From the IMG/VR virus record IMGVR_UViG_3300005583_000013, positions 1 to 22,791 of that record: a stretch of 22,791 nucleotides of DNA, one strand, 5' to 3'. The DNA is from a virus. Under the pieces are notes generated by a model. The model was not told the origin of the DNA. It ran no database searches and was given only the letters and a program-made list of their open reading frames with translations. A program made the translations under genes and the position numbers. Positions 10,967 to 14,650 of this stretch are shown piece after piece. Position 1 is the stretch's first letter, and each line of letters opens with the position of its first letter.

Positions 10967-12040
10967 ATGACATCTACTGCTATCAACCTCAACACGCAGC
11001 TTTCGCTTGCTCAAGCGGCGCAGCTTATACTTGCCACCCCCTCTGTACGCTATTGCTTGGAAGGCGAACCCGGCATCGGCAAGTCGAGCATCATGCGGGT
11101 ATTAAAGGAAGCCCACCCGGACTACCACGCATCTTATATGGACGTACCCACTATGGACCTAGGCGATATCTCCATGCCTATGGTGGACAAGGAACTGGGC
11201 ATCACACGATACGCACCCAACTCTCGCTTTGGCATACACCTTGGCGGTCCTATCATCTGTATGCTGGATGAGTATGCCAAGGGAGCGACCCCGGTTAAGA
11301 ATATGCTCCACTCCATGTTCGAGACTGACAAGCCGCGCCTTGGGGACTTGGACATTCACCCCCTGTCTCATATCTTCGCTACCTGTAACCTGTCCGACAA
11401 CGGGCTGGGCGATAGTCTGGCAGCGCATACGCGCAACCGCTTGGTCATGATCCACGTGCGTAAGCCTACCGCACTGGAATGGCTGGACTGGGGTTTCGAC
11501 AACGGGCTTGATGGTTCGCTGGCTCTGTGGGTCAAGGACAACCCACATGCCTTTGCGTCATACACGGACGGCGACCAGACTGGCAATCACCACATCTTCA
11601 ACCCGCGCATTACGCAGAAGGCGTTCTTCTCGCCGCGCTCCGCTATGCGGGCGAACGAGATCATAAGCAAGAGGGAAGCCTATGACGCACATACCCTGAT
11701 TGCTGCGCTGTCTGGCGCTGTGGGCGAAGCGACTGCGCGGGATATGGAGGCACACATTGCGTACAAGGACGAGCTGCCGAGGTGGGCAGACATGGTGCGT
11801 GATCCCAAGCGCGTACCTGTACCCAAGAGTTCGGGTGCGTGTGCCGTCATGGCGTATGGCGCTATCCAGCTAATCACCAAGGATACCATGACCCCGTTCA
11901 TGGACTATCTGGAGCGGTTCGACCCGGAGTGGCAGGCTGTGTTCGGCATCAACGTAGTCAAGAACAAGAAGCAAGCGCCCATCGCATACGGTAACCGCGC
12001 GTTTGCGAATTGGGTCCAGAAGAACGAAGACCTGCTGTAA
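10967..12040 (+). CDS. AAA+ ATPase, MoxR/CobS-like
   Basis: 357 residues. The P-loop is GEPGIGKSS (33-41, K39), Walker B is ICMLDEY (D101, E102), sensor 1 lies at FATCN (N141), and HTRNR (about 153-157) is a likely arginine finger. The C-terminal part (about 160-357) is a helical lid domain with an IFNPRITQKAFFSPRS segment. Such ATPases pair with VWA proteins and act as chaperones that remodel partner complexes; related phage genes are often labelled cobS. The next gene is indeed a VWA protein. AGAAGGA precedes the ATG by ten bases. A consensus promoter and palindrome copy 8 lie upstream. Nothing here specifically supports cobalt insertion, since no other cobalamin gene is present. Confidence 0.9.
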   Translation: MTSTAINLNTQLSLAQAAQLILATPSVRYCLEGEPGIGKSSIMRVLKEAHPDYHASYMDVPTMDLGDISMPMVDKELGITRYAPNSRFGIHLGGPIICMLDEYAKGATPVKNMLHSMFETDKPRLGDLDIHPLSHIFATCNLSDNGLGDSLAAHTRNRLVMIHVRKPTALEWLDWGFDNGLDGSLALWVKDNPHAFASYTDGDQTGNHHIFNPRITQKAFFSPRSAMRANEIISKREAYDAHTLIAALSGAVGEATARDMEAHIAYKDELPRWADMVRDPKRVPVPKSSGACAVMAYGAIQLITKDTMTPFMDYLERFDPEWQAVFGINVVKNKKQAPIAYGNRAFANWVQKNEDLL

Positions 12041-12067
12041 ACCACTATAAAAAAAGGACAAACCAAC

Positions 12068-13297
12068 ATGTTAATACCATTAGATAAAACTATACGCAGA
12101 CTACAGAAGGTTCGCATCAGTCTCATGCGGAGCAATATGTTCTGCGCCATGTCAGGCATCATGATGATGGGTACTTGCTCCGTAAAAGATGGCGTTCCTA
12201 CGGCGTACACGGACGGACGCAATGAGGTGTATGGGCGGGAGTTCATCAACGGTCTGACTGACGACAGGCACGTTGCGTTCGCCTGTATGCACGAGAACTA
12301 CCACAAGATGTATCGGCACCTGACAACGTGGAAGAAGCTATGGGACGAGGACCCACGCCTAGCTAACATGGCTTGTGACTTCCATATCAACCTCAAGCTG
12401 GTGGATCAGGACCCCAACGAGACCCTGATCGCCATGCTGTACAAGGATGGTAGGCCAGCATGGTGTCTCGACGCTAAGTTCCGGGGCATGAACACCAAGC
12501 AAATCTTCGACATCCTCAAGAAGAGGAAGAAAGAAGGCACGGGTAAGGGTCCACCGGTAGAGGGCGATGGCGAACCCTTGGACGATCATGGGTGGGAGGA
12601 CGCCAATGCTAGGACCGACGAAGAGGAACGTGAACTGGCGCAGGAAGTAGATCGGGCTATCCGCCAAGGCAAGATCGCGGCCAACAAGCAATGCGGCAAG
12701 GGCATGGGTGGTGGTGACTGGGACTTGGGCGAACTGACTACACCCAAGGTGAACTGGCGCGAGGAACTGCGTGAGTTCGTACGGACTACGTGTCGGGGTA
12801 ATGATGCGTCTAGCTGGCGTAGACCCAACAGGCGCTTCCTTGCCGACGATGTATATATGCCTAGCATGGTCAGCGAGCGCGTGCGTTCGTTGGTCTTGAT
12901 GCAGGATATGTCGGGTAGCACTGGGTGCGATGAGCGCATGGCCGCGATGTCTGAGATCGTGGGTATGCTCAAGGAAGTACACCCTGAGAGCGTGGACCTA
13001 CTGTACTGGGGTAGCTATGTGTCAGGCCATGAGCACTACACCCAGAGCACCATGGACACTATCGCGTTCGTGACTAAGCCCAAGGAAGGTGGTGGCACCG
13101 AGCCTACTGTTGCCATCCCCTTTATGAAAAACAAGAACATTAGCCCCGACTGTATCATCGTGTTCACGGATGGATACATCAGCAACTGGGGTACTGATTG
13201 GCCCGCGCCTATCCTGTGGGTCATATGTGGGAGTGGCGGCTCTAGCATCACCGCCCCCGTGGGTAAGACCATCCACGTTGACATTAGTGCAGAGTAG
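12068..13297 (+). CDS. HEXXH metallopeptidase-like plus VWA domain protein
   Basis: 409 residues. The N-terminal domain has HENYH (H75, E76, H79) and a following NMACDFHIN segment, the pattern of the DUF2201 putative metallopeptidase family. A charged linker (about 150-210, Lys/Gly/Glu-rich) leads to a C-terminal VWA domain with a MIDAS motif DMSGS (D280, S282, S284) and FTDG (D368). Gene order ATPase then VWA is that of MoxR-VWA and CobS-CobT pairs, in which the VWA protein bridges ATPase and substrate. AAAGGA lies about nine bases before the ATG. Substrate unknown; whether the HEXXH site is an active protease cannot be told from sequence. Confidence 0.85.
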   Translation: MLIPLDKTIRRLQKVRISLMRSNMFCAMSGIMMMGTCSVKDGVPTAYTDGRNEVYGREFINGLTDDRHVAFACMHENYHKMYRHLTTWKKLWDEDPRLANMACDFHINLKLVDQDPNETLIAMLYKDGRPAWCLDAKFRGMNTKQIFDILKKRKKEGTGKGPPVEGDGEPLDDHGWEDANARTDEEERELAQEVDRAIRQGKIAANKQCGKGMGGGDWDLGELTTPKVNWREELREFVRTTCRGNDASSWRRPNRRFLADDVYMPSMVSERVRSLVLMQDMSGSTGCDERMAAMSEIVGMLKEVHPESVDLLYWGSYVSGHEHYTQSTMDTIAFVTKPKEGGGTEPTVAIPFMKNKNISPDCIIVFTDGYISNWGTDWPAPILWVICGSGGSSITAPVGKTIHVDISAE

Positions 13298-13312
13298 TAG
13301 TGACCAACCAAT

Positions 13313-13331
13313 AAGTAGCGTAACGCTACTT
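13313..13331. repeat. GTAGCGT palindrome copy 9 (centre A)
   Basis: Perfect copy 16 bases after the VWA stop, followed by TAACCAGAAGGA, and 25 bases before the ATG at 13356. Confidence 0.95.
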
Positions 13332-13355
13332 TAACCAGAAGGACTACCAATTATA

Positions 13356-13718
13356 ATGTTGAACATCCAGAAGAAAGAAATCAACAGGCTTACCACCCTG
13401 CTGAAAAGCGCGGGTGCTTCCTACGACATACTCCTGCCAGATGGGGTACGTTTACAACACGGCAGCGTGTCCAAGACTGCTGGCACGAACGCACCATCGG
13501 GTCATCGCTACAGGCGCGGTGAAACCCCGGCGTACTTCCTGCCCTTAATCAAGGACTTGAAGCCGGGTGAAGCGGTGGAAATCCCGTTTGATCGCTTCCA
13601 TCCATACACGCTGGCTTCCAACATCGGCTCTCATGCTTTCGCTATGTGGGGTAAGGGCAACTACACTTCGTCCCGCGATAACGAGCGCAAGGTGGTTGAA
13701 CTTCTACGTATGCAGTGA
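13356..13718 (+). CDS. Hypothetical protein, 120 residues
   Basis: ATG at 13356 with AGAAGGA about 14 bases upstream, a slightly long spacing. The N-terminal helix (NIQKKEINRLTTLLKSAG) is followed by a probable beta region and a C-terminal half with KPGEAVEIPFDRF and GKGNYTSSRD. That second half resembles small phage proteins with a short DNA-binding-like domain, but I cannot name the family. It sits between the VWA gene and the 13726 hairpin. Confidence 0.75.
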   Translation: MLNIQKKEINRLTTLLKSAGASYDILLPDGVRLQHGSVSKTAGTNAPSGHRYRRGETPAYFLPLIKDLKPGEAVEIPFDRFHPYTLASNIGSHAFAMWGKGNYTSSRDNERKVVELLRMQ

Positions 13719-13725
13719 CGGCCTA

Positions 13726-13754
13726 CTAGGGGGTAGCATCCCGTTACCCCCTAG
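13726..13754. repeat. Ten-base stem-loop between genes
   Basis: CTAGGGGGTA / TACCCCCTAG, perfect arms with a nine-base loop (13736-13744), no T run after it. More likely an RNA stability or processing element, or an operator, than a terminator. It separates the 13356 and 13787 genes. Confidence 0.6.
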
Positions 13755-13786
13755 CCTACCACGTTACCAACCAGAGGGAACTCCCA

Positions 13787-14650
13787 ATGAGCATTGCATC
13801 AAGCACGATACTGGCCGAGTTAAACATCAACCTGTGGTCTGCCGAAAAAGTGGACAAGGGGGAGACTGAGACGGTCAACACTAGCAACCACGCCGGGCAT
13901 AAAGCAGCGCAAGTGCGTAAGAACCTGATGGCCGGCACCAGCGAGAGGCGGGAGATCGAACTGTACGCAACCGCTTGCCGCGCGTGGCACAAAAGCCAGA
14001 CGGTGCCGTGGGTAGATCGCGGCCCGCGCCTTCTGTCCACTAGCGTCTTCATGGACTACAAGCAGGAGGTGAACTTGCGTAAGAGTACGTTCAGCGTAAT
14101 GGCTGACAAGTTTGCGCAGAACTTCCCGGCTCTGGTGCAGATCGTCAAGAACCACTCCGAGGGGTTGGGTAATATGTTCAACCCCGACGATTACCCCCCG
14201 GCAGATCAGGTCCGCAGTATGTTTGATATGCGGTGGGTGTTCTCACCTGTGCCTGAGAGCGGAGACTTCCGGCTGGATATCCCTGCACAGGAACTGGACG
14301 AGGTCCGGGCTGAGTACGAGATCAGCTTCAACGACAGGCTGGCTGACGCCATGAAGGAACCGTGGGATCGTCTCCACAAGTTGCTTGAGGGTATCTCTGG
14401 TAAATTGACTGATGTGGAAGGCGAAGACACTAAGAAGAGGTACCACGACACACTCATCACAAACGCGCTGGACTTGTGCGGTATGCTTGGGCATCTCAAC
14501 GTCACCAAGGACCCCAAGCTGGAGAAGGCACGGCGTATGCTGGAGAGTACTATGGCCGGAGCGGATATCGACACGCTCAAGGAATGCCCTGAGGTACGCG
14601 CTGGTATCAAATCCAAGGTGGACAACATTCTCAATACGTTCGACTGGTAG
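13787..14650 (+). CDS. DUF3150-like phage protein
   Basis: 287 residues; GAGGGA nine bases before the ATG. The opening LAELNINLWSAEK and the layout (short beta strand, then mostly helices with a W-R-G-rich turn near residues 75-85) resemble DUF3150 proteins, which in phages are often coded near a CobS/MoxR-type ATPase and a VWA protein, as here. Long helical segments (about 170-250) suggest a structural or adaptor protein. No catalytic residues visible. The family match is from memory of the pattern and moderate; partnership with the ATPase and VWA proteins is inference from gene order. Confidence 0.7.
   Translation: MSIASSTILAELNINLWSAEKVDKGETETVNTSNHAGHKAAQVRKNLMAGTSERREIELYATACRAWHKSQTVPWVDRGPRLLSTSVFMDYKQEVNLRKSTFSVMADKFAQNFPALVQIVKNHSEGLGNMFNPDDYPPADQVRSMFDMRWVFSPVPESGDFRLDIPAQELDEVRAEYEISFNDRLADAMKEPWDRLHKLLEGISGKLTDVEGEDTKKRYHDTLITNALDLCGMLGHLNVTKDPKLEKARRMLESTMAGADIDTLKECPEVRAGIKSKVDNILNTFDW

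Follow-up and report, generated by a model that had tools for sequence, protein, structure and literature searches.

Genes for a AAA+ ATPase and for a protein with a von Willebrand factor A (VWA) domain have been reported side by side in several phages. In jumbo phages, a MoxR ATPase is paired with a metallopeptidase-vWA protein; Iyer et al. (2021; PMC7824862) proposed that this pair functions in virion assembly, drawing on the analogy of the Acidianus two-tailed virus. In phage N4, gp24 is an AAA ATPase and gp25 a vWFA/pfam13203 protein, with the function listed as unknown (PMC2784036; PMC6992544), and in N4-like phages the pair is placed between RNA polymerase and nucleotide-metabolism genes (PMC2784036). 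These N4 proteins and their plasmid cousins have stood for more than a decade as unknown, or mislabelled as cobaltochelatase or HNH endonuclease. An operon of this type is present in the IMG/VR virus record IMGVR_UViG_3300005583_000013, a linear record of 22.8 kb (22,791 nucleotides, referred to here in its entirety as the window). It was found to encode, in addition to the pair, a DUF3150 protein and a fast-evolving fourth protein, and related loci indicate that the triad of AAA, DUF3150 and metallo-VWA genes is shared with conjugative plasmids.

The jumbo-phage pair resembles that of the window in having adjacent genes and the same domain order (AAA, then a HEXXH domain fused to vWA). As described, however, it has no third component, whereas DUF3150 and the fourth gene are near-universal among the relatives of the window and plasmids share the triad. 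The proteins gp24 and gp25 of N4 and their Schitoviridae homologues form the same AAA/VWA pair as in the window, but DUF3150 was not detectable in the three Schitoviridae loci checked. Plasmid pCAR1 (IncP-7) is closer in composition, with ORF101–103 encoding AAA, DUF3150 (PF11348, 8.3e-92) and a VWA protein with both a HEXXH motif and a metal ion-dependent adhesion site (MIDAS); it differs in that the AAA protein is clearly CbbQ-type and the VWA protein is NorD/CobT-like rather than DUF2201. The same gene group has been noted on R478, Rts1, SXT and R391 (PMC2642839).

With regard to cellular systems, NorQ-NorD and CbbQ-CbbO likewise combine a MoxR-type AAA protein with a VWA partner, and have a related AAA profile and VWA fold. 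For NorQD, structural work shows a finger of the VWA partner within the AAA pore, and a twisting motion has been proposed; its target is nitric oxide reductase, and in the accessible portion of that account neither a HEXXH domain nor DUF3150 is noted (PMC13036017). The MoxR-vWA ternary conflict systems resemble the window operon in possessing a MoxR AAA protein, a vWA protein (sometimes with fused peptidase domains) and a third component, but this component is VMAP, iSTAND, FtsH or a beta-propeller where the window has DUF3150, and the systems are cellular (PMC7159879). The AAA/metallo-VWA pair (PMC7824862; PMC2784036; PMC6992544) and DUF3150 as a named family were therefore already known. What is new is the third and fourth components, the operon limits, the conserved promoters, the occurrence of the triad on conjugative plasmids as well, the joint loss of metal-site residues with retention of MIDAS, and a predicted, so far unsolved DUF3150 fold.

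Composition and limits of the operon

Approximately 150 related loci were obtained from two protein-seeded scans of IMG/VR, with the gene order AAA – VWA – DUF3150 – 288-aa protein – Hjc-like nuclease – PolA. In the window, the corresponding core genes, all on the plus strand, encode the AAA+ ATPase (10967–12040, 357 amino acids (aa)), the metallopeptidase-like VWA protein (12068–13297, 409 aa), the DUF3150 protein (13787–14650, 287 aa) and a fourth protein of 288 aa (15050–15916). Counting two accessory open reading frames (ORFs) that lie among them, the intergenic gaps from the AAA through the 288-aa gene are 11–68 bases. Among loci found by way of DUF3150, the VWA gene lay upstream in 39/39, AAA was present in 29/29 and the 288-aa gene followed in 69/69; among those found by way of the VWA protein, all testable loci had AAA (47/47) and the 288-aa gene (58/58). 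Only two clear cases of 76 VWA-seeded loci lacked DUF3150 (L026 and L035); where DUF3150 or AAA seemed to be missing from other viral loci, overlapping start calls were mostly responsible. No AAA gene without VWA was seen within the AAA family of the window. Judged from this conservation, the core unit is the AAA+ ATPase, the HEXXH-VWA (DUF2201) protein, DUF3150 and the fast-evolving fourth protein.

Pairwise distances across 71 loci, which are descriptive as the pairs are non-independent, gave r = 0.84 for AAA versus VWA, and 0.75 after correction for PolA. Partial correlations beyond PolA among AAA, VWA, DUF3150 and the fourth gene were 0.52–0.75, compared with 0.18–0.49 for these genes versus the Hjc-like neighbour (only 0.20 for AAA versus the Hjc-like gene).

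The head of the operon carries a sigma70-type promoter (10820–10848, plus strand; TTGACA-17-TATACT with an extended -10, matching 11 of 12 consensus bases). Relatives were scanned over up to 300 bases upstream for sigma70-type sites that agree with the consensus at 10 or more of 12 positions, and compared with shuffled sequences. Such a site preceded AAA in 74% of 76 relatives, as against ~5% of shuffles, and was a perfect 12/12 match in ten. The same scan found no conserved promoter before the VWA, DUF3150 or 288-aa gene. The next unit, comprising the Hjc-like nuclease and PolA, has its own conserved promoter (15987–16015, plus strand; 59/93 relatives), the scan giving 51% of relatives versus ~3% of shuffles. 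Since conserved promoters are found only before AAA and the Hjc-like nuclease, the transcription unit most likely runs from AAA to the 288-aa gene (10820–15916), the second promoter marking its end. A promoter-like site at 11229 within the AAA gene was discounted as chance.

An earlier note on this DNA, made from the sequence alone, had described a cassette of four ORFs under a single consensus promoter. These ORFs and the promoter stand, as does the DUF3150-like label, but the cassette was drawn too short: it ended at 14650, and the fourth core gene was missed. Co-occurrence across phages, suggested there as a check, was borne out in the ~150 loci but does not extend to N4-like, jumbo and Vequinta-type phages, which keep AAA and VWA and in which DUF3150 was not detectable. 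This is in part the pattern that the note had named as counting against its reading.

The component proteins

The ATPase matched PHROG 1297 (1.5e-34) and has intact Walker A and Walker B motifs, sensor 1 (N141), arginine finger (R158) and sensor 2 (R224). Across 155 homologues, K39 was conserved in 152, D101 in 152, N141 in 155, R158 in 154 and R224 in 155. A 20-sequence profile compared with the PDB gave midasin as the best match (1.4e-45), with Clp-type proteins, p97, NorQ (1.5e-9) and a CbbQ/NorQ-domain protein (1.1e-8) at lower rank. Seventeen of the 20 members matched Pfam AAA_5 and nine matched AAA_3 (MoxR), the window protein itself falling below the cut-offs, and bpMoxR gave weak matches only (best 0.0026). 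Midasin/Rea1, which offers the closest solved AAA sequences and in which the MIDAS binds the target, is one giant chain that acts in ribosome assembly and is not known to have a peptidase domain. Pfam and NCBIfam scans gave no CobS or CobT family match for the window proteins, and no CobN or other cobalamin gene was recognised among the scanned genes of this 22.8-kb fragment. A cobaltochelatase identity was rejected for want of a family match; by sequence, the ATPase groups with midasin, NorQ and CbbQ, in agreement with the earlier note, which had favoured MoxR-type remodelling over cobalamin synthesis.

The VWA protein matched Pfam DUF2201_N (1.7e-24) and DUF2201 (8e-8). Its AlphaFold 2 (AF2) model has a predicted local distance difference test (pLDDT) score of 80.5, and Foldseek matched it to VWA domains including the midasin MIDAS and NorD. 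The HENYH (HEXXH) motif at residues 75–79 (12290–12304) and the MIDAS motif DMSGS at residues 280–284 (12905–12919), completed by T344 and D368, are both intact, as had been noticed before. Among 166 homologues of phage, plasmid or chromosomal origin, H75 was kept in 159, E76 in 158 and H79 in 162, and MIDAS positions in 165, 161 and 164. The eight homologues that lost HEXXH are all plasmid or chromosomal members. In four of Paraburkholderia, HEXXH was lost jointly with N100, A102, D104 and N108, while H84 and MIDAS were retained. As D104 (12377–12379; kept in 162/166) is lost together with HEXXH and sits on the helix following the HEXXH helix in the AF2 model, it is the probable third metal ligand. 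That one plasmid lineage lost the metal site but retained MIDAS suggests that the essential activity of the protein is binding through MIDAS. It was also observed that PHROG 1314 and many phage records label the metallo-VWA protein as "HNH endonuclease" or "homing endonuclease"; a domain search found no HNH domain in it. The DUF3150 protein of phage Tunturi_3 (5872–6831 of its locus, L155) is likewise labelled HNH, and no HNH domain was found.

The 287-aa window protein does not on its own match Pfam DUF3150 (PF11348), which the phage family reaches only via divergent members. The assignment was made through the relative in locus L008, which is 39% identical to the window protein and scores 25.2 bits against a cut-off of 24.9. 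The AF2 model is mostly helical (pLDDT 92.6, predicted template modelling (TM) score 0.83) and matched a predicted viral DUF3150 protein in BFVD (TM 0.86, E 4e-19). In the PDB there was no structural match below E 0.25 and sequence comparison was likewise unconvincing, so that the fold is a predicted one, without a solved counterpart so far. A profile of the phage proteins matched, at 1.9e-44, the gene annotated as "hypothetical" that lies between AAA and VWA on plasmids, and weakly (18 bits, in an unfiltered search of four proteins) the DUF3150 of pCAR1. A genome scan with this profile gave no matches, whereas a scan with plasmid sequences was successful. No paper in the open-access literature searched uses the name DUF3150.

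The 288-aa protein belongs to no Pfam or PHROG family and shows a mean identity of 25%, compared with ~60% for its neighbours (71 loci). Its origin as a DUF3150 duplicate was rejected (hhalign probability 0.3%). In Rhizobium phage TM27A (L162), AAA, VWA, a 257-aa protein (7501–8274) and PolA follow in the same order as in the window, and the 257-aa protein matched neither the DUF3150 nor the 288-aa family.

Plasmid triads and the proposed role

The order AAA – DUF3150 – VWA was found on plasmids of Burkholderia, Paraburkholderia, Cupriavidus, Variovorax, Simplicispira and Rhodovastum, and also on contigs that are chromosomal or could not be placed, among them those of Dechloromonas, Rhodocyclus, Bryobacterales and WWE3. 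Equal numbers of plasmid records with DUF3150 and VWA were counted for Burkholderia, Paraburkholderia, Cupriavidus, Caballeronia, Variovorax, Rhodovastum, Robbsia and Simplicispira. The plasmid copies of the triad lack the fourth gene. A different arrangement, with DUF3150 downstream of a longer AAA gene of the classical type and no DUF2201 VWA detected near it, was found in several of the members examined from Planctomycetota, Deltaproteobacteria and phage Tunturi_3. The DUF3150 of the pCAR1/IncC-type clade occurs in 1,118 plasmid records, of which 969 (87%) are typed conjugative, a count inflated by near-identical plasmids. In the plasmid cases examined, DUF3150 stands beside Red-like recombination genes: one IncC plasmid has AAA, ssb, bet, lambda-exonuclease, DUF3150 and VWA, and one Providencia plasmid has RecT, exonuclease, MoxR, DUF3150, VWA and traF. 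The HEXXH-VWA proteins of the IncP-7, IncC and Providencia plasmids are of a different family, and their genes have ssb, RecT/Bet and lambda-exonuclease genes in the surroundings. In a tree of the VWA proteins, built by a quick method and with several long branches, the clade of the window (support 100) lies nearer the DUF3150-less N4-like/jumbo clade than the DUF3150-bearing plasmid clade, and the presence of DUF3150 has to change at least twice; DUF3150 was therefore gained or lost more than once.

It is proposed, with a probability of roughly 55%, that the operon encodes an early-acting AAA+ remodeller of the MoxR/NorQ-NorD/midasin type, dependent on MIDAS and equipped with a protease-like co-chaperone, serving the replication, recombination or establishment of mobile-element DNA. 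The phage and plasmid settings share mobile DNA and not virions, and recombination and replication genes lie nearby (an Hjc-like nuclease, PolA and a PD-(D/E)XK nuclease in the window phage), which together argue for an early remodeller of proteins involved in replicating, recombining or establishing DNA. A NorQD-type arrangement is the simplest reading of the machine. The AAA+ protein would form a hexamer on which the C-terminal VWA domain would dock, with the MIDAS metal gripping a target that is twisted or pulled as ATP is turned over. The N-terminal HEXXH domain, standing in for the N-terminal part of NorD, may trim or cleave the presented protein in most members while being dispensable. 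DUF3150 could be a dedicated helical adaptor that connects targets with this machine or with a related AAA ring, and the fourth protein may be the phage-specific part that faces target or host. The machine would most likely act on proteins that sit on the DNA of the element itself, or in its vicinity, while this DNA is replicated, recombined or established in the host, and the operon would be expressed early. Several points weigh against this proposal: DNA-metabolism genes are common throughout phage early regions, which leaves the argument from context only suggestive; a sigma70-type promoter alone is compatible with late use; and the predicted protease activity appears dispensable in one lineage. 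A more far-reaching version is put forward only tentatively, namely that AAA – DUF3150 – metallo-VWA is a previously unnamed mobile-DNA machine of tailed phages, of IncC, IncP-7 and Burkholderiales conjugative plasmids and probably of integrative and conjugative elements, which would strip or cleave proteins from incoming or replicating element DNA, with DUF3150 as a new adaptor fold and the fourth protein setting the phage target.

The strongest rival, if still an unlikely explanation, is counter-defence, in which the machine would unfold or cut host immunity proteins attacking incoming phage or plasmid DNA and the fourth protein would pick the target. Such a role would be common to phages and conjugative plasmids, and is consistent with a probable host-polymerase promoter and with a fourth gene that is obligatory yet only 25% identical on average. 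However, the fourth gene is missing from plasmid copies, the peptidase residues are lost in some members, PADLOC gave no match to a known defence system, and no association with known anti-defence genes came to light, although no search was aimed at one. The assembly and trimming of structural proteins by an AAA/VWA chaperone-protease, as suggested for the jumbo-phage pair (PMC7824862), is quite improbable here. As conjugative plasmids carry the same triad but build no virion, a role common to both settings cannot be virion assembly, and the action on virion proteins considered in the earlier note is disfavoured. The operon also runs divergently from the terminase genes, under a conserved sigma70-type promoter of its own, and the N4-like pair has the position already cited, between RNA polymerase and nucleotide-metabolism genes (PMC2784036). 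Least probable is a metal-insertion or cofactor chaperone (cobaltochelatase-, NorQD- or CoxD/E-like) that matures a phage or host metalloenzyme, such as ribonucleotide reductase or a nuclease. In its favour, NorQ and NorD, the nearest functionally studied relatives, insert metal (PMC13036017), and an AAA gene of plasmid pAQU1, with a VWA gene alongside, is labelled CobS (PMC4036041); the window proteins themselves match none of CobS, CobT and CobN, and no common metalloenzyme neighbour was found across the phages and plasmids examined. Under the preferred reading of an early remodeller, one three-part machine across phages and widespread conjugative plasmids would be a testable idea replacing virion assembly; DUF3150 would gain a likely role along with its predicted fold, and exact parts and residues can be named for testing.

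Accessory and neighbouring genes

The 120-aa ORF (13356–13718, plus strand), counted as a member of the cassette in the earlier note, has homologues in only four other viral loci, i.e., it is found in five including the window. A short ATPase gene upstream of the operon (8851–9279, plus strand), which had been put forward as a possible regulator, is an internally deleted AAA+ copy: the deletion takes out the part between Walker B and the arginine finger, both included, and leaves Walker A and the sensor-2 region in place. Relatives have no separate clear gene of this kind (one weak 123-aa match, in L147). With the 120-aa ORF restricted to five loci and the truncated ATPase to the window, neither is a conserved part or a regulator, and both were rejected as parts of the machine. 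A second accessory ORF of 122 aa (14662–15030, plus strand) belongs to a "wandering" family whose place varies among relatives: ahead of the 284-aa gene, between AAA and VWA, or after DUF3150. The 284-aa gene itself (9953–10807 in the window), of unknown family, commonly lies directly 5' of the operon promoter (~49 related loci).

The promoter of the Hjc-like nuclease ends 6 bases ahead of the ATG (15987–16022 in the window), and in 39 of the 59 relatives with a strong promoter at this gene the ATG lies 5–7 bases past the -10 box, from which a leaderless mRNA is predicted. Further downstream, a homologue of the GcrA cell-cycle regulator is encoded at 18467–18967 (Pfam 7.5e-23), which suggests an alphaproteobacterial host.

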